Below, piece after piece: positions 51,827 to 60,839 of a stretch of DNA of 64,000 nucleotides. Location: positions 62,001 to 126,000 of the forward strand of contig NZ_BIFH01000018.1 of assembly GCF_003967355.1 (NCBI RefSeq), in the 5' to 3' direction. Every line of letters begins with the position of its first letter. The first letter of the stretch is position 1. The position numbers were made by a program, and so were the translations under genes. The notes below the pieces were generated by a model. It had not been told where the DNA came from and ran no database searches. It saw only the letters and a list, made by a program, of their open reading frames with translations. Origin of the DNA: Embleya hyalina. Its GTDB lineage: Bacteria; Actinomycetota; Actinomycetes; Streptomycetales; Streptomycetaceae.

Positions 51827-52960
51827 TCAGCGGCCGGTGCGCAGCCAGGTGGAGAGGGCGGACAAGGCGGCCTCCGCGTGGTCGCGGCCGACGCCGACGC
51901 GAAAACGGTCGGTGGGGGTCGGGGTGAGGTCGGAGCGGTAGATGCTCGCGGGGAGCAGGAGCACGCCCGCCTCCTCCACCAGGCGGGTACAGAACGCCTC
52001 GACCCCCTCGGCGCCGAGGTAGCGGGGGTAGGCGACGCATCCCCCGTCGGGGGCCCGCCACTCGAAGTCGTCGGGGTACTCGGCGAAGAACGCGTCGAAC
52101 ACCGTCAGGTTGGCGGTGATCAGGGCGCGGTTGCGGGCCAGGATCGTCTCGCGGGCCTTCAGGGCGATCCTGGCCAACACCTCGCTCGGCGCGGAGTTGC
52201 AGATCGTGGTGTAGTGCTTGGCCCGCTCCAGGCGCGAGCGCAGGGCCCGGTCGCGGCAGGCGATCCAGCCGATGCGCAGGCCGGGCAGGCCGAGGGACTT
52301 CGAGGTCACGTTCAGCGACAGGGCGTGCGGCGACAGGTCGGCGGCCTGGGGCAGGGTGCGGGCCGGGTCGCGTTCGAGGCCGCGATACACCTCGTCGCTG
52401 AACAGATGGATCCCACGCTCGTCGCACAGCCGGACCAGGGCGGCGAATTCGGCGCGGTCGACGACCTTGCCCGTGGGGTTGTGCGGGAAGTTCACCGAGA
52501 CGACCCGGGTGTTCGGGCGGATCGCGGCGAGCACCGCGTCGAGGTCCAGGGCCCAGTCCCGCGCCGGGTCGAGCGCCACGCCGGTGACCTCGCACAGGGC
52601 CAGCGGAACGGTCTCGGCGGACTGATAGTTCGGGGTCGTCACGACCGCGTGGTCGCCGGCGTCGAGAAGCACGTTCATCGCCACGTACAGGGCCTCCTCG
52701 GCGCCCGCGAAGCAGATGACGTCGTCCGGCTCGATGTGCTCGTAGGTGTCGGCGATCGCCGCGCGCAGGCCCGGGTCGCCGAAGGTCTCGGTGTAGCCCA
52801 GGGACAGGTGTTCGAAGGCGTCCCGGTCGGTGTCGTCCGCCAGTTCGAGCAGCGCGCCCAGCGTCATGGTCCGCGCGTCGGACGCGGTCAGGTGGTGGCG
52901 GGCGGTGAACTCCCAGCGGGAGAAGTACGTTTCCAGGCGGAAATCGGGCAGCCGGGTCAT
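51827..52960 (-). CDS. Class I/II PLP-dependent aminotransferase
   Basis: 377 residues. AGAEEALYVAMNVLLDAGDHAVVTTPNYQS holds the cofactor-phosphate loop. NFPHNPTGKVVDRAEFAALVRLC, LFSDEVYRGLE and the Schiff-base lysine in NVTSKSLGLPGLRIGWIAC follow (Lys near 229). The C-terminal Arg that binds the substrate carboxylate is in DRFRVGVGR. It starts five bases after the YheO-type regulator and converges on the permease gene, so it may belong to the same pathway. Confidence 0.9.
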   Translation of the reverse strand: MTRLPDFRLETYFSRWEFTARHHLTASDARTMTLGALLELADDTDRDAFEHLSLGYTETFGDPGLRAAIADTYEHIEPDDVICFAGAEEALYVAMNVLLDAGDHAVVTTPNYQSAETVPLALCEVTGVALDPARDWALDLDAVLAAIRPNTRVVSVNFPHNPTGKVVDRAEFAALVRLCDERGIHLFSDEVYRGLERDPARTLPQAADLSPHALSLNVTSKSLGLPGLRIGWIACRDRALRSRLERAKHYTTICNSAPSEVLARIALKARETILARNRALITANLTVFDAFFAEYPDDFEWRAPDGGCVAYPRYLGAEGVEAFCTRLVEEAGVLLLPASIYRSDLTPTPTDRFRVGVGRDHAEAALSALSTWLRTGR

Positions 52961-52965
52961 GGTCG

Positions 52966-53616
52966 TCAGCTTCTCTCACTCGTCGCTCGTACATCGGCCA
53001 GCAGGTCGTACACGGTGGACCTGGATACCCGCAGGGCCTCGGCGACGACCGGGACGACGCGACGCACCGCGAACACGCCGGCCTCGTCCAGGCGGGCCAC
53101 GACGGTCAGCCGGTCCGGGCGGGTCATGCGCTCGGCGGGGCGCCCGGTGGCGCGCACGTGGCCGCCGACCACCTCGGCGACGCGCGCCGACAGGTCCTGT
53201 TCGAACAGCGGCTCGGGGCGCCGCACGGTCGGCGCGCCGAAGGCGGACAGGACGGCGGCGGCCCGCTCCAGCGGCGTGCGGTCGAGATTGACGCACAACA
53301 CCGCGGCCGGCTCCCCGTGGGCGTCGCGCAGCACCGCGCTGACCGACGACAACCGGCGGCCGTCCGCGAGCACCTTCTCGTACGGCCCGTACACGTCGCG
53401 CGCCGCCGGATCCAGCGCGGCCAACTCGCCCAGGGCCGAGGGGTCGCCCGGACCGCGCGAGGTGAACGGGTTCCACACCGCCAACACCCGGTCGGTCCCG
53501 GGATCGTGCAGCACGACCTCGGCGTACGGCCCGAGCAGCAGCGCGACGGCCCGCCCCACCGGCTCCCACATCCGCACCCGGGGATCCGCGCCCTCTTCCT
53601 TCGCCGGTACACCCAT
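52966..53616 (-). CDS. YheO/DauR-type PAS-HTH regulator
   Basis: 216 residues. The YheO-like PAS domain has VGRAVALLLGPYAEVVLHDPGTDRVLAVWNPFTSRGPGDPSALGEL, followed by GRRLSSVSAVLRDAHGEPAAVLCVNLDRTPLERAAAVL. The C-terminal HTH_22 is RLDEAGVFAVRRVVPVVAEALRVSRSTVYDLLADVRA. DauR, a relative, represses D-arginine catabolism. It is the first gene of a pair with the aminotransferase. No ribosome site is obvious at this ATG. Confidence 0.88.
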   Translation of the reverse strand: MGVPAKEEGADPRVRMWEPVGRAVALLLGPYAEVVLHDPGTDRVLAVWNPFTSRGPGDPSALGELAALDPAARDVYGPYEKVLADGRRLSSVSAVLRDAHGEPAAVLCVNLDRTPLERAAAVLSAFGAPTVRRPEPLFEQDLSARVAEVVGGHVRATGRPAERMTRPDRLTVVARLDEAGVFAVRRVVPVVAEALRVSRSTVYDLLADVRATSERS

Positions 53617-53769
53617 GACCGGACTGTACGTCCGGATCGGACGAAACGTCCAGTCGACGAGCCGGGCGCGCGGCGTCGGCACCGCGCGGCGGGTGGGGTG
53701 ACCGGGTCCGGGCGGCGCTCGATGCGTTCGTTTCGGCGGGGCCTTCGGGCCGAGGGCGGCGAAGGGGGC

Positions 53770-55015: not shown

Positions 55016-55570
55016 CGGGAGCCTTTCTGTTCCGAACGCCCGGCCGTTTTCCGCGAGTTAGCGGGGACCGGGCACGGTGACCGGGCTCGGCGCGGGGCGC
55101 CGGGATACCCGTTCGATGTGGACGACGTCAGTCTGCGGCGCGGCCCGGAACGGCGACAGGGCACGAACCGCACTGGTGGCAGGGAGTATTTCGTGCCGCG
55201 CGCAATCCTCCGCGGCCGAGCGACCGGGCCCGCGTCGGCGGATACGACGTACGGGCCGCGGAACGTGTACGGGCGTAGGACGCGGATGGCGGTCGAGTGT
55301 GCCGGGGCAGTACTCGGGTCCTCGTACCCTCGGGGGACGTGCGGACCCGGGTCGGCTTCGTAGCCTCGACCCACGCGATCGGGGAGTGCGCGCGGACTCG
55401 GCGCGATGGAACCAACTCCCTTTGGGCGCACGGTATTCGGCAGTGCGATGGGTGCGTAGCGCGAGGCACGTCGCCGGCGTTGCGCGTTCGTGCCCGCGTG
55501 CCCGCCCGCTCGCGTGGCGGCCACTTGTGTGTGTGCCGCGTCCCACCGAGATCGATCGAGAGGCGACACC
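55016..55570. other. Divergent intergenic region, secreted peptide / serine hydrolase
   Basis: About 555 bp. A 57-codon frame from GTG near 55192 has GGGAG upstream, but its Arg/Gly-rich composition looks random. No terminator, repeat or promoter could be assigned with confidence. It may contain degraded coding sequence. Confidence 0.35.
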
Positions 55571-57097
55571 GTGATCGACCATCGCCACACCCCCTCCGCC
55601 GACGGGCCCGCCGACCACGAGTTCGTGCCGCCCACCCGGCGTGCCGTGCTGCGTAGGTCGCTGGGCGTCGCGGCCGGCGCCACCGCGGCCGGCTCCGTGA
55701 TCGCCCCGTCCGCGTACGCCGCCGAGCAACCACCCGCGCCCGCTGACCCGTCCGCCGCCGGTCCGGCCACGCGGCACTGGCAGGCCAGGCTCGACGCACT
55801 GGCCGCCCGTCACCAGGTGCCCGGCGCCGCGCTGGGCATCCTGTCCGGCGATCGCGTCACGAAGATCGCCACCGGCCTGGCCAACGTCGACGACCGGGTC
55901 GGGGCCACACCGGACACCGTCTGGCAGATCGGCTCCGTCACCAAGGTCTGGACCGCGACCGTGGCCATGCGCCTGGTCGACGAGGGTCTGCTCGACCTCG
56001 ACGCACCCGTGACGCGCGTGATGCCCGAACTGCGCCTGTCGGACCCGGACCGCACGGCCCGCCTGACCCTGCGTCACCTGCTCACGCACACCAGCGGGAT
56101 CGACGGCGACGTGCTCACCGACACCGGTCGCGGCGACGACTGCCTGGAGCGATATGCCGCTCTGCTCAGGGGTGTTCGCGGTGTGCACCCGCTCGGCCGG
56201 GCCTACTCGTACTGCAACGCCGGACTGATGCTCACGGGCCGACTCATCGAGCGGGTCACCGGTACGACCTGGGACGCAGCACTCCGCGACCGCCTCCTGA
56301 AGCCGCTGGGCCTGACCCGCACGCACACCCTGCCCGAGGACGTGCTCGCCCACCGCGCCGCCGCCGGCCACACCTGGGAACGGGATCGGCCCCCGCACGT
56401 GAACCCCGCCTGGATGCCGCGCTCCTCGGGCCCCGCCGGCATCGTCTGCTCGTCCGCCGAGGACGTGCTCACGTTCGCCCGCCTCCACCTGGACGACGGC
56501 CGCGCGACCGACGGCACGCGCATCCTGTCGACCCGTTCCGCCGAGGCGATGCGCTCGTTCCAGACCGACACCCCCGACACCGCCGACGGCGGCGAAACCA
56601 GCGGACTGGGCTGGGCCCGCTGGGACTGGAACGGCCGGACCGCCTACGGCCACGACGGCACCACCCACGCCCAGTCGTCCTTCCTGCGCATCCTGCCCGA
56701 CGCCCGGATCGCCGTGGTCCTGCTCACCAACGGCGGCGACAACGCCGCGCTGTACGTGGACCTGTTCCGGGAGATCTTCACCGACCTCGCCCACGTCGCA
56801 CCACGCCCGCAACACACCCCCGACGGCAGTACACCGCCACGCGACGCCGGCGGATACCTGGGCCGCTACCCGGCCACCACCATCGTCGAGGACGTGCTCG
56901 AACGCGACGGCGCCCTGTACGTGCGCCGGACGTTCGCGGGGCAACCTCCGTCGGAGTTCCGCCTCCTGCCGGCCGGCCGTGACCTGTACGTCCACCGCGT
57001 GTCCGACACGCGCGAGTGGCAGACGATCAAGTTCTTCACGCTGGACGGGATTCGGTACCTCTACCGAGGCGGCAGGGTCGTGGCGCGCGGCGCCTGA
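55571..57097 (+). CDS. Secreted serine hydrolase (class C beta-lactamase / penicillin-binding family)
   Basis: 508 residues from a GTG with GAGAGGCG upstream. A twin-arginine-like signal, TRRAVLRRSLGVAAGATAAG, ends at SAYA. Catalytic SVTK (S-x-x-K) lies in WQIGSVTKVWTA near 122, Tyr-x-Asn in YSYCNAG near 218, and a third motif HDG in YGHDGTT. The C-terminal 120 residues form a lipocalin-like extension. It is a D-aminopeptidase, esterase or beta-lactamase-type enzyme outside the cell. It converges on the P450 gene. Confidence 0.88.
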   Translation: MIDHRHTPSADGPADHEFVPPTRRAVLRRSLGVAAGATAAGSVIAPSAYAAEQPPAPADPSAAGPATRHWQARLDALAARHQVPGAALGILSGDRVTKIATGLANVDDRVGATPDTVWQIGSVTKVWTATVAMRLVDEGLLDLDAPVTRVMPELRLSDPDRTARLTLRHLLTHTSGIDGDVLTDTGRGDDCLERYAALLRGVRGVHPLGRAYSYCNAGLMLTGRLIERVTGTTWDAALRDRLLKPLGLTRTHTLPEDVLAHRAAAGHTWERDRPPHVNPAWMPRSSGPAGIVCSSAEDVLTFARLHLDDGRATDGTRILSTRSAEAMRSFQTDTPDTADGGETSGLGWARWDWNGRTAYGHDGTTHAQSSFLRILPDARIAVVLLTNGGDNAALYVDLFREIFTDLAHVAPRPQHTPDGSTPPRDAGGYLGRYPATTIVEDVLERDGALYVRRTFAGQPPSEFRLLPAGRDLYVHRVSDTREWQTIKFFTLDGIRYLYRGGRVVARGA

Positions 57098-57164: not shown

Positions 57165-58229
57165 TCATGTGGCGAGGAGACGCGTTCGGGACACCTGTAC
57201 CCGTGTGACCCCGAGCAGGCCGGCGAGCGGCACCCTGGCGGTGGTCTGTCCGGGGTTCACCGCGAGGCCGTCGGCGCGCAGGCGTTCGAGGAGGTGTTCG
57301 GCGAGCGGGACGATCAGGTGCCGGCCTCGGCAACGATCGCTCGCGTGGCCGAAGGGGATGTAGCCCGGGTGGTCGTCCTCGTCCACCTCGTGCCAGCGCT
57401 CGGGGAGGAACACGTCGGGCTCGGGCCACAGTTCGGGATCGCGATGGGTCAGCAGCGGCAATAGCAGCACGTCGTCGCGCGGACCGATCCGGGAGTCCAC
57501 GGCGGAGAACTCGGGGGACGCGACCCGCAGGATGTTCCACGACGGCGGCAACAACCGCAGCGATTCCAGCACGAGGTGCCGGTTGCTCGCGTCGGGGTGG
57601 AACGGCGAGCCGAGCCAGAGCGCGTTGGCGACCAGTGCCGCGACCCCCAGGCACACCGGCGCGGCGACCCGGCGGTACAGGCCCATGGCGTAGCGCCGGT
57701 CGCCGTGCTCGGCGGCGGCCGTGGCGGTGGCGGCCGCGAGGCGGGACACCGGCGGGTCGAGGGCGCGCTTTCCCGGCAGGACGGCACTCGTGCGAACCAT
57801 GGCGCGGGTGAGTACCGGCGCCTTTTCGAGGCGGCGATCGGTGAGCATGCGAAACCGCAGCGGATCGGGCCCGAAAAGAAGATCGCGAAGATAGGCGTGT
57901 CCCGTACGCGGCCAGCTGCCGGAAAGATCGACGGAATCGGGAGCCGGTCCGCCCAATGCGGCGCGCACGTCGTGCGAGACGGCCCGCAGGACGTCGTTGG
58001 CCTCCACCCGCTCTATCGATCTTCCCTGGAGCGGCTTGAAAGTCGGCCGCTCGAATTCGTGAGCCGGCCGGCTCTCGAGGAGTTTGTTGATCAATTCCGG
58101 ATCGGCGACTCCGACGGTGTCGCCGTCGATGCGAAAAAAGCCCGTGCCGCGACGCTCGCGCAGGAGTTCCGCGATCCTCGGCGCGAAAACGGTGACCCGG
58201 GCACTTCCGACCGTGTCGGAACGATTCAT
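57165..58229 (-). CDS. Cytochrome P450 of the atropopeptide (tryptorubin-type) cluster
   Basis: 354 residues, short for a bacterial P450 (about 400). GGAGAG precedes the ATG. The heme loop is FGHASDRCRGRH with Cys300. The K-helix ExxR is E222-S-L-R225, and WPEPDVFLPERW (268-279) is the usual meander. The expected I-helix acid-alcohol pair (D/E-T) is not visible: that region reads VCLGVAALVANALW. It lies 183 bp downstream of a precursor gene ending in WYIWY. It should couple the Trp and Tyr side chains of that core by C-C and C-N bonds, as in tryptorubin. Confidence 0.88.
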   Translation of the reverse strand: MNRSDTVGSARVTVFAPRIAELLRERRGTGFFRIDGDTVGVADPELINKLLESRPAHEFERPTFKPLQGRSIERVEANDVLRAVSHDVRAALGGPAPDSVDLSGSWPRTGHAYLRDLLFGPDPLRFRMLTDRRLEKAPVLTRAMVRTSAVLPGKRALDPPVSRLAAATATAAAEHGDRRYAMGLYRRVAAPVCLGVAALVANALWLGSPFHPDASNRHLVLESLRLLPPSWNILRVASPEFSAVDSRIGPRDDVLLLPLLTHRDPELWPEPDVFLPERWHEVDEDDHPGYIPFGHASDRCRGRHLIVPLAEHLLERLRADGLAVNPGQTTARVPLAGLLGVTRVQVSRTRLLAT

Positions 58230-58259
58230 CGGTGCTCTCCACAGGGCGTAGAGTCTCCC

Positions 58260-58292
58260 GCCCGGCGGAGCCGGGACGCGGCTCCGCCGGGC
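58260..58292 (-). terminator. 13-bp stem-loop between precursor and P450 genes
   Basis: GCCCGGCGGAGCC (58260-58272) and GGCTCCGCCGGGC (58280-58292) pair perfectly around a seven-base loop, 31 bp before the P450 start. There is no U-run. In RiPP operons a hairpin here commonly lets more precursor than enzyme be made, by partial termination or 3'-end protection. Confidence 0.7.
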
Positions 58293-58412
58293 GCGAGCCC
58301 GGGCGGCGATCCGACGCTCGGTCGGGTCGAGGCGGCGCTACCGCAGAGGTAACGATTATGCGGCGGGAGCGGGCACGACCCGCATCGGTCGGCGGATCAG
58401 CCGATCAGTGGA

Positions 58413-58499
58413 TCAGCTGTACCAGATGTACCAGGTGGCGGATTTGAGGCTCTTTTCGACCCTGAACCTCTTGGAGAAAGAGTTGACGATCTTCACCAC
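58413..58499 (-). CDS. Atropopeptide precursor peptide with WYIWY core
   Basis: 28 codons, too short for ordinary gene finders. GTG 58499 (a second GTG follows at 58496) lies five bases after GGAGG (58509-58505). The leader is basic and Ser/Lys-rich (VVKIVNSFSKRFRVEKSLKS), and the peptide ends ATWYIWYS. Tryptorubin A is the cross-linked hexapeptide AWYIWY, made from a short precursor by a single P450. Here WYIWY is identical, with an extra Thr before Trp and an extra C-terminal Ser. The P450 follows in the same direction. Confidence 0.92.
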   Translation of the reverse strand: MVKIVNSFSKRFRVEKSLKSATWYIWYS

Positions 58500-58521
58500 G
58501 ACAACCTCCAGGTGACTGTGG

Positions 58522-58614
58522 ACCGGCCGGATCCCCTACGCGACCCGGGCCGGTGGAGCGATATCCACCGCTAGAGAATCCGCCTTTCGATTCTCGTCGC
58601 TTCGAAAGTGAAGC
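58522..58614 (-). promoter_or_regulatory. Structured 5' leader upstream of the precursor gene
   Basis: Three adjacent hairpins: GCTTC/GAAGC (58599-58614), GAGAATC/GATTCTC (58574-58595) and CGGTGGA/TCCACCG (58551-58570). A fourth possible pairing, ACCGGCC (58522-58528) with GGCCGGT (58548-58554), overlaps the third and would exclude it. Such alternative folds close to the ribosome site at 58505-58509 could control translation (inference from pairing only). Confidence 0.45.
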
Positions 58615-58636
58615 CTTGATACGAAAGGTGCGTCAA

Positions 58637-58652
58637 TGTGATGTAGATCACA
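58637..58652. promoter_or_regulatory. Consensus CRP-type box upstream of the atropopeptide genes
   Basis: TGTGATGTAGATCACA is a perfect TGTGA-N6-TCACA site. It abuts TTGACG on the minus strand (58636-58631), a candidate -35 box, about 140 bp upstream of the precursor start. Streptomyces Crp recognises GTG-N6-CAC and influences secondary metabolism. Confidence 0.7.
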
Positions 58653-58663
58653 GATCAAAAACA

Positions 58664-58681: not shown

Positions 58682-59013
58682 AAAACAGGTAAGCGGCTGT
58701 TTGTCGATCTTGGCCGCAGGGCCGCCGGCAGATCCGTCGGCGGTTCCGACCATGTGCGGAGATCGAGTGTGAGCGAGGGTAAACGGATTTCTTTCGGCCA
58801 CGGGAAAGCGGGCCGGCGGAGCCGGACGCCGGGCCGGTCGCGACCGGCGCCGGTGGCGGCTCGCCCGCCCCGGGGTTCCGCCGAAGTGGGCCGCCGGGGC
58901 GGGTCGCCGTCGAGACGCGCGGCACCGGAGGTGTGGCCGGCACGACGGGTCGGGCGGCCGCCCGGTCGTTCGGCCGGCGCGAAGTATGCGCGAACCCGTC
59001 CGTCGGCCGAACC
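58682..59013. other. Non-coding stretch between the RiPP promoter and the NmrA-like gene
   Basis: About 330 bp. The part near 58682-58800 is AT-richer and regulatory in look. The remainder is GC-rich, with no gene I can support on either strand. Confidence 0.4.
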
Positions 59014-59049
59014 CCTTCCGGGCGCGCCGTCGTTCGCGCGCCCGGAAGG
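59014..59049 (-). terminator. Terminator of the NmrA-like gene
   Basis: CCTTCCGGGCGCG (59014-59026) pairs perfectly with CGCGCCCGGAAGG (59037-59049) around a ten-base loop, beginning four bases after the stop codon of the NmrA-like gene. Confidence 0.8.
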
Positions 59050-59052
59050 CCG

Positions 59053-59898
59053 CTACCGGAACGCCGGCAGGTTGCGCGCCACCCACTCGCCGAACGGTCG
59101 GGCCGCACGACCCAGAACGTTCGCCACGTCCGGGCCGACCTCCACCTCGGCCGGCAGCGGCCGGCCGAGGACGTCCAGGGTGCCGCCGATCGCCTCCTCC
59201 GGCATGAACCGCGCCATGCGGGCGTGGGCCTCCTCGCGCGAAAGCTCCACGAAAGCCACCGGTTCGCCCAGCGCCGCGGCGATGATCTCGGTCTGCCGGC
59301 GCGGGCTGATCGCCTCGGGCCCGGTCGGCTCGTAGGTACGGCCGGCGTGGCCGTCCTCGCGCAGTACGACCGCGGCCATGTCGGCGATGTCCGCCGGGTC
59401 GACGAGGGGCAGCGCCGAGTCGCCGAACGGGGCGAAGACCGTGCGCTTGCCGCGGACCGACTCGGCCCACGCGAACGCGTTGGAGGCGAAGGCGTTCGGA
59501 CGCAGGACCGTGAAGTCGGTCCCCGACGTGCGCACCGCCGCCTCGAACGCCCGCAGGCGGGCATGCGAAGCGGCCCGGGGACGGGTGGAGTTGAGTTGGG
59601 ACGAGAGCAGGACGATGCGTCCCACGCCGGCGTCCGCAGCGGCGCCGACCAGGTTCTCCGGACTCTCTCCGTGGGCGTTGAGTTCGCCCGCCAGGAGGAT
59701 GAACAACGCGTCGGCGCCGTCGAGGACCGGCCGCATGCCCGCCGAGTCCCCGACGTCGGCGCGGGCGTGCCGTACGCCGTCCGGAAGGCCCGTGAGCCGC
59801 GGACGCCGCGAGACGGCCACGACGTCCTCGCCGACTGTCGCCAATTGCTCCACAAGCGCCCGGCCGATGTTGCCGGTCGCACCCGTGATCACGATCAT
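59053..59898 (-). CDS. NmrA-like NAD(P)-binding reductase/sensor
   Basis: 281 residues. The N-terminal Rossmann motif is IVITGATGNIGRALVEQLA. VAVSRRPRLTG follows the second strand (Arg-Arg suggests NADPH). Then VGRIVLLSSQLNST, FTVLRPNAFASNAFAWAE and VDPADIADMAAVVLREDGHAGRTYEPTGPEAIS. This order is typical of the NmrA/QorB-like atypical SDRs, which act as quinone or isoflavone reductases or redox sensors. A palindrome sits just upstream. Confidence 0.88.
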   Translation of the reverse strand: MIVITGATGNIGRALVEQLATVGEDVVAVSRRPRLTGLPDGVRHARADVGDSAGMRPVLDGADALFILLAGELNAHGESPENLVGAAADAGVGRIVLLSSQLNSTRPRAASHARLRAFEAAVRTSGTDFTVLRPNAFASNAFAWAESVRGKRTVFAPFGDSALPLVDPADIADMAAVVLREDGHAGRTYEPTGPEAISPRRQTEIIAAALGEPVAFVELSREEAHARMARFMPEEAIGGTLDVLGRPLPAEVEVGPDVANVLGRAARPFGEWVARNLPAFR

Positions 59899-59916
59899 TG
59901 CCGTCTCCCGCTTGTT

Positions 59917-59932
59917 AGTTAGTTGACTGACT
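59917..59932. promoter_or_regulatory. Operator-like repeat upstream of the NmrA-like gene
   Basis: AGTTAGT (59917-59923) and ACTGACT (59926-59932) match as inverted arms at six of seven positions around TG. It lies 19 bp before the start codon, in an AT-rich patch. Such sites are typical of HxlR or MarR repressors, but no regulator gene is adjacent. Confidence 0.5.
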
Positions 59933-60109
59933 CAGTTCGACGAGAGTGACCGTAGCACGCGTTTCGCGCACCTGTCACCGGACGGGGTCCCGGTCGTTGC
60001 GGGCCCGGGGGTGGGCCTTGCGGAGGAGTCGCCGGGCCGGGTGTCGCCGGGGCCGGATGTCGGTGGGGCCGGTCATACTCGGTCGAACCCGCGATCCGGA
60101 AGGTGGACC

Positions 60110-60658
60110 ATGGACGGCACGCCCGCGCCCCGGCACTACGCACCTCGATGGGACGGGGACGACCGACCCGCTCCGCCCTCCGTCGGGAGCGAGCGGGAAA
60201 CGCTGAGCGCGGTGCTGGACTGGCACCGGGACACGTTCGAGCTCAAGTGCGCCGGACTGTCGTCGGATCAGCTGTCCGAACGGGCCGTGCCGCCGTCGAC
60301 GATGTCCCTGCACGGCCTGGTGCGGCACCTGGCCGGCGTCGAACGCTGGTGGTTCCGCATCCAGTTCGCCGGCGAGGACCTTCCGCTGCTCCACTACTCC
60401 GACGACGACCCCGACCAGGACTTCGACAGCCTGGACGGTGACACCGACGAGGCCTTCGCCGTCTGGCGAGCCGAATGCGAACACTCGCGCCGAGTCACCG
60501 CGGCCGCCCTCTCGTTGGACGAAACGGGGACACGCAAGCGCACGGGGGAGCCGATCTCCCTCCGCAGAATCCTGGTCGACATGATCGCCGAGTACGCCCG
60601 CCACAACGGCCACGCCGACCTCCTCCGCGAACGCCTCGACGGCGCCACGGGCATGTAG
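60110..60658 (+). CDS. DinB/DUF664-family protein (putative mycothiol-dependent transferase)
   Basis: 182 residues with GGAAGGTGG before the ATG. The four-helix DinB fold is seen in ERETLSAVLDWHRDTFELKCAGLSSDQLSERAVPPSTMSLHGLVRHLAGVERWWFRIQFAG and SLRRILVDMIAEYARHNGHADLLRERLDG. The three metal-binding His positions are in VRHLAGVE and YARHNGHAD. Members use mycothiol or similar thiols in detoxification. It is monocistronic. Confidence 0.88.
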   Translation: MDGTPAPRHYAPRWDGDDRPAPPSVGSERETLSAVLDWHRDTFELKCAGLSSDQLSERAVPPSTMSLHGLVRHLAGVERWWFRIQFAGEDLPLLHYSDDDPDQDFDSLDGDTDEAFAVWRAECEHSRRVTAAALSLDETGTRKRTGEPISLRRILVDMIAEYARHNGHADLLRERLDGATGM

Positions 60659-60839
60659 CCGGCGCCCGCCCGGCCTCGGCCTGCCGGGCCGGGCGGAGCC
60701 GCGAACTTGCCTGCCCGGACGGGCAATCGGCTCGACGTCGCGGCGAGGTGTGACGGTGCCGGGTCCGAGGCGTCACCCGGGCGCCCCGCGTGATCGGCGT
60801 AGACTGCGCGCCCGAGTCCGGATTGTCGTGGAGGCGTTT

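Follow-up and report, generated by a model that had tools for sequence, protein, structure and literature searches.

What does a 28-codon gene ending in the codons for TWYIWYS, followed by a single cytochrome P450 gene, make in Embleya hyalina? The two genes lie on the minus strand of a 64,000-nucleotide stretch of contig NZ_BIFH01000018.1 (the window, to which all coordinates refer). Judged from its sequence, this locus is securely an atropopeptide (tryptorubin-family) cluster consisting of a precursor gene and a P450 gene. We further propose, with a probability of about 0.72, that it is of the scabrirubin type: the P450 would form one Trp-Trp C-N bond in the WYIW part of the core and both ends would be trimmed, giving cyclic WYIW. 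The features that carry this proposal are as follows.

58413..58499, minus strand: precursor peptide gene, 28 codons from its first GTG, 27 from its second (58496)
58443-58454, minus strand: KSLK motif of the precursor
58416-58436, minus strand: core TWYIWYS
58413-58415, minus strand: stop codon TGA
58505..58509, minus strand: ribosome-binding site GGAGG of the precursor gene
57165..58229, minus strand: cytochrome P450 gene, 354 amino acids, ScaB/CihB clade, with the heme ligand Cys300 and E222-x-x-R225 present
58235..58240, minus strand: ribosome-binding site GGAGAG of the P450 gene, 5 bases before its ATG

On the minus strand, 58413-58499 translates as VVKIVNSFSKRFRVEKSLKSATWYIWYS and then a stop. 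The GGAGG is 5 bases from the GTG at 58499 and 8 bases from that at 58496, and the site, TGGAGGTTGTCGTG, is identical at the corresponding loci of all four Embleya genomes compared (the window's own, G002, Embleya scabrispora and G003). The peptide matches the NCBIfam model tryptorubin_fam (NF038372) with 38.8 bits, and as this passes the cut-off of 33, the gene is not a chance open reading frame (ORF). The alignment, in which residue 3 falls on model position 2, agrees with the second GTG and a 27-residue precursor; the published numbering of ScaA, the E. scabrispora precursor (W23, F24, I25 and W26 of 28; PMC11450843), agrees with the first. The features by which PMC11450843 defines atropopeptides are all present: KSLK at residues 16-19 of the leader, Trp at core position 2 (T-W-YIWYS) with the KSLK-xxx-W spacing of its relatives, and a P450 of the class-defining kind. 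The bitryptide core motif xWxxWx is present as well (TWYIWY). The core is TWYIWYS and not the AWYIWY of tryptorubin A, and with 27-28 residues the precursor is not of the biarylitide type, which has five residues and an 18-bp gene (PMC13417212). An initial annotation of this DNA had described a short gene with a ribosome site and the ending TWYIWYS, a P450 as the next gene on the same strand, and a tryptorubin-like cluster; the translation, the GGAGG, the NF038372 score, KSLK, the core Trp-2, and the family and clade of the P450 bear this out.

That annotation also took the Thr to be inserted between Ala and Trp. The window precursor reads KSLK-SAT-W, and we compared its spacing with 115 precursor-like ORFs that accompany 114 of 116 distinct P450 loci of the family (the second ORF of locus L139 is probably spurious, and the two loci with no KSLK-type precursor alongside are L110 and the fragment L094). 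Although a gap of two to four residues from KSLK, or its variant, to Trp was permitted, the spacing was three residues in 115/115, and the residue before Trp was mostly Ala. As the spacing is invariant, Thr is core residue 1 replacing Ala, and not an insertion. The precursor offers too few sites for its ratio of non-synonymous to synonymous substitutions (dN/dS) to serve as support. Only the four genus loci end in Ser among these 115 ORFs. The core does differ from that of tryptorubin A, as had been claimed, but a Ser at the C-terminus has been published before: PMC11450843 describes three heptapeptide cores that carry such an extra Ser and characterises one of them, TWFIWYS of E. scabrispora. 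TWYIWYS was not found in the main texts of the literature searched, and it may be among those three heptapeptides. A Kitasatospora locus (L057), in another genus, also has Thr at core position 1 (ATWYLWY, core TWYLWY), without the Ser tail.

The P450 gene follows the precursor gene after a gap of 183 bases, and its product matches PF00067 with 46.6 bits. It is 95% identical to its G002 counterpart, 78% to CihB and 75% to the P450 of E. scabrispora DSM 41855 (on NZ_KB889561.1, where the published sca cluster lies), within a range of 53-95% to full-length P450s of the family. Against G002, dN is 0.033 and dS 0.159, and against E. scabrispora 0.170 and 0.567; by these ratios of about 0.2-0.3 the gene is evidently under purifying selection. 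Nearly all matches to PDB sequences cover only about residues 210-345, but an unrelated catabolic P450 was ruled out, as a KSLK-type precursor stands alongside 114 of the 116 distinct loci of its relatives. A careful tree was computed from 61 of 127 P450s: 28 were picked, covering the ScaB/CihB clade, the sequences nearest to it and named cases, and the remaining 99 were thinned to every third. In this tree, 11 P450s of the ScaB/CihB type, the window enzyme included, form one side of a branch with support 100/100, and the window enzyme groups with those of G002 and Embleya sp. NPDC055664 and with CihB at 100/98. When three P450s from the window's genome served as outgroup in a quick tree, the CihB grouping was recovered (98), with the base of the family unresolved. 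The initial annotation had made its case depend on the short ORF being conserved beside orthologous P450s and on the P450 lying among enzymes that crosslink ribosomally synthesised and post-translationally modified peptides; the ORF is conserved, and the P450 falls inside such a clade.

The predicted product follows from the characterised neighbours. The ScaA core TWFIWYS of E. scabrispora, trimmed at both ends, gives the tetrapeptide scabrirubin (WFIW), in which a single C-N bond joins the two Trp residues (PMC11450843). When ScaB was combined with the WYIWY precursor LauA in Streptomyces albus, the products were CB-1 (WYIW, m/z 665.3083), called "non-natural", and CB-2 (WYIWY, m/z 828.3718), both lacking 2 H and both with one Trp-Trp C-N bond (PMC12352619). 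The cihunamides, made by CihB, have a single bond from Trp C7 to Trp N1. As the two characterised enzymes on either side of it, ScaB and CihB, both make one Trp-Trp C-N bond, the same is expected of the window P450. As the window enzyme is expected to act in this way on its own WYIWY core, scabrirubin CB-1 is the predicted native product of the locus. By analogy with these relatives, the KSLK region would dock the leader on the P450, which would oxidatively couple C7 of Trp-1 to N1 of Trp-4 with loss of 2 H. Host peptidases not encoded at the locus would then remove the leader, the Thr and the Tyr-Ser tail, leaving the cyclic WYIW tetrapeptide with an expected m/z of 665.3082 for [M+H]+. The annotation had noted that no leader protease is adjacent, and we likewise identified no protease as part of the unit. 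Our calculated masses for WYIW-2H (665.3082), WFIW-2H (649.3133) and WYIWY-2H (828.3715) agree with the published 665.3083 and 649.3132 and with CB-2. The parts of this pathway that can be read directly in the DNA are the precursor gene, KSLK, the TWYIWYS core, the adjacent ScaB/CihB-clade P450 and an upstream element described below.

The locus is a close relative, and probably an orthologue, of the sca cluster with a one-residue change in the core. Both have two genes, a KSLK leader and a heptapeptide core with a C-terminal Ser (PMC11450843), and they share the promoter element and a hairpin as well as P450s that are 75% identical. They differ in the core (TWFIWYS in E. scabrispora, TWYIWYS here, Phe to Tyr) and in their chromosomal surroundings, and the window P450 is closer in the tree to CihB, of the Streptomyces sp. 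cihunamide cluster and the closest named characterised P450 (78%), than to ScaB. The predicted product is the same molecule as CB-1, cyclic WYIW of m/z 665.308; CB-1 came from ScaB and LauA paired in S. albus (PMC12352619), whereas the window P450 and its precursor come from one native locus. Tryptorubins A and B share the WYIWY sequence, the precursor family and the P450 family with the window locus, which has Thr instead of Ala at core position 1, an extra C-terminal Ser, and a P450 that falls in a different clade from the P450s that go with AWYxWY cores. The initial annotation had taken tryptorubin A as the closest chemistry; scabrirubin and the cihunamides, with their one Trp-Trp C-N bond, are closer. 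The locus is a predicted natural source, with its native enzyme-substrate pair and with exact masses given, for a bioactive cyclic tetrapeptide that has been called non-natural.

Several points weigh against cyclic WYIW as the product. Since Tyr takes the place of the ScaA Phe in the native core, the P450 may use it for a further Trp-Tyr bond that would have been undetectable with ScaA, and ScaB is just 75% identical to the window enzyme. CB-2 appeared beside CB-1 from ScaB and LauA, which makes a product mixture possible, and the trimming was observed in S. albus and not in Embleya (PMC11450843). The authors of that paper also warn that structural novelty may be poorly predicted from P450 phylogeny, and one atropopeptide P450, SvaB, yields both one-bond and three-bond products (PMC11450843). 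The SvaB precedent and this warning, together with the exact WYIWY of tryptorubin in the window core, speak for an enzyme that installs several bonds, using the Tyr absent from ScaA, and so makes a polycyclic tryptorubin-like WYIWY lacking 4 or 6 H. We consider this unlikely, as the window P450 lies within the ScaB/CihB clade and has all 21 residues typical of it, and the ScaB products isolated from a WYIWY precursor lack 2 H (PMC12352619).

The initial annotation expected a new congener with an N-terminal overhang and a different C-terminus, which means that Thr, Ser or both would stay on the mature peptide. Native Embleya peptidases may indeed differ from those of the hosts studied. However, TWFIWYS, with one core residue different, is trimmed at both ends to WFIW (PMC11450843); the product need not keep Thr or Ser, the claim was overstated, and we hold their retention to be improbable. 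It is more improbable still that the cluster is silent or decayed and makes no product. The textbook P450 heme motif is FxxGxxxCxG, and the heme loop of the window enzyme, PFGHASDRCRG, lacks the Gly at position 4, which could be taken as a sign of decay. However, such a loop occurs in 124 of 127 P450s of the family, the P450 shows the low dN/dS given above, and the promoter element and ribosome sites (GGAGAG for the P450 gene in all four cases) are kept in the four genus loci.

A native Tyr-containing core in a single-bond clade raises the question whether the number of bonds is set by the P450 or by the aromatic residues of the core. We found 21 P450 positions that mark the 11-member ScaB/CihB clade, a marker being a residue present in at least 10 of the 11 members and in at most 10% of the 116 other P450s. 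The sharpest are R142, S148, L194, G195 and R301; at these positions 115 or 116 of the 116 others have W, G, F, T and W, respectively. The five residues are candidate determinants of bond number. S148, L194 and G195 occur in 11/11 clade members, and R142 and R301 in 10/11. One member (P0009) retains the Trp after the heme Cys, as does the G003 fragment L094, which is too short for the count. In an AlphaFold model of the window P450, L194-G195 fall in a long helix (178-207), and R301 directly follows the heme Cys. Beyond a P450 fold, this model (predicted local distance difference test score 73.8, template modelling score about 0.5 against ordinary P450s) confirms nothing, and it was not used as support. 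ScaB is predicted to have a larger pocket (PMC12352619); the clade-marking residues may be its cause, a suggestion that is confounded with descent. As the 11 members belong to a single clade, the signature as a whole cannot separate shared history from function. Our literature searches turned up no earlier report of these positions.

Scabrirubin-type precursors are found in all four genus genomes, as TWYIWYS (window and G002), TWFIWYS (E. scabrispora) and TWFVWYS (G003), and all four genomes have an NF038372 match over the cut-off. In G003 that match belongs to an AWYAWY locus, and the TWFVWYS precursor scores 29.8 bits, under the cut-off. G003 thus bears two different atropopeptide loci, AWYAWY (L092, contig 692) and TWFVWYS (L093/L094, contigs 257 and 19); the P450 of the latter runs off its contig end, and another contig end has a P450 tail of the same kind. 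Across the family, 50 of 394 genomes have NF038372 matches at E <= 0.01, 48 of them over the cut-off, compared with 0/14 control genomes.

Upstream of the precursor gene lie two further elements.

58607..58636, minus strand: promoter-like two-box element TTGAC-N19-TTCACT, with boxes at 58632-58636 and 58607-58612
58637..58652, no strand assigned: CRP-type palindrome TGTGATCTACATCACA, abutting the first promoter box

Of 115 atropopeptide upstream regions, 45 contain TTGAC-N17-19-TT[C/G]ACT, and of 2300 dinucleotide shuffles none does. As the loci are related, the number of origins is smaller than this count suggests. The perfect palindrome TGTGA-N6-TCACA at 58637-58652 is the sole instance in the 64-kb window (0.01 expected), and the 12.05 Mb genome has it in 14 places, against none for the reversed control. 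It is kept in 4/4 genus loci amid a diverged upstream region. Allowing up to one mismatch in its 10 fixed bases, it is present in 11/115 upstream regions, compared with about 0.8 expected from shuffles, and the looser GTGA-N6-TCAC in 17/115, including loci of Streptomyces and Amycolatopsis. Where its position was taken (17 of 114), its distance ahead of the KSLK codon is 153-198 bases in 16 cases and 112 in the other. A palindrome stands at the first box in 15 of the 45 two-box loci. A search of 391 genomes with palindrome and two-box element combined gave 5 places, 3 at atropopeptide precursors and 2 elsewhere, and the reversed control gave none among the matches listed. The 3 precursor matches belonged to loci from which the pattern was drawn, and of the 24 genomes sampled in which a precursor is known, 21 were without a match. 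The composite pattern therefore shows a low background and a low reach, and no independent discovery.

A protein of the Crp/Fnr family is present in the host genome (281 bits to PDB 3i54), and we take it to resemble mycobacterial Crp and corynebacterial GlxR. The Streptomyces coelicolor Crp motif is GTG-N6-GNCAC and the GlxR motif GTG-N8-CAC (PMC10033298). The E. scabrispora and G003 palindromes fit the former, whereas those of the window and G002 fit only the GlxR motif. We tentatively suggest that many atropopeptide clusters move with their own TTGAC-N17-19-TT[C/G]ACT promoter, that in Embleya and related lineages a Crp/GlxR-type regulator switches them at the palindrome, and that the Embleya branch makes CB-1 naturally. 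Regulation by Crp would mean that production answers to cyclic adenosine monophosphate signalling; it would explain silent clusters and provide a DNA signature for new ones. Against it, the exact two-box element is missing in 70 of 115 upstream regions and GTGA-N6-TCAC in 98 of 115, the second box TTCACT poorly matches a standard -10, and the window and G002 palindromes are without the G of the S. coelicolor motif. The two-box pattern also occurs 11 times in its own genome and 7 times in the reversed control, so alone it is unspecific. "Promoter" and "Crp" are absent from the main texts of PMC11450843 and PMC12352619, and our literature searches turned up no earlier report of a conserved upstream element. 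An element shared in this way offers a handle on the expression of these clusters and on their discovery from DNA alone.

The extent of the unit was delimited by alignment with its relatives.

57184..58662, minus strand: module common to the window and E. scabrispora, promoter to P450 (blastn, 78.7% DNA identity over 1.49 kb)
58255..58297, minus strand: G+C-rich hairpin between the two genes, about 25 bases before the P450 start
55490-57097, plus strand: convergent flanking gene, beta-lactamase Pfam family
59053-59898, minus strand: flanking gene, NmrA-like NAD(P)-binding protein

Outside 57184-58662, nothing aligns with E. scabrispora in the 19.5 kb compared, and the G002 alignment block containing the cluster stops at 58853, the next starting at 60741. 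As the G002 block breaks there and E. scabrispora shares only the module, neither flanking gene looks to be part of the cluster, and from these alignments the portable unit is promoter, precursor, hairpin and P450. A long stem folds at the hairpin position in 4/4 genus loci; covariation is weak, with both sides changed in 1 of 33 pairs. The hairpin may set the ratio of precursor to P450, perhaps by lowering P450 expression relative to that of the precursor. Beside the cluster, 51845-53723 and 58854-60740 have no blastn alignment to the corresponding G002 region. These stretches contain aminotransferase and YheO-like regulator genes, and NmrA-like and mycothiol-S-transferase genes, respectively, which points to local gene turnover around the cluster.
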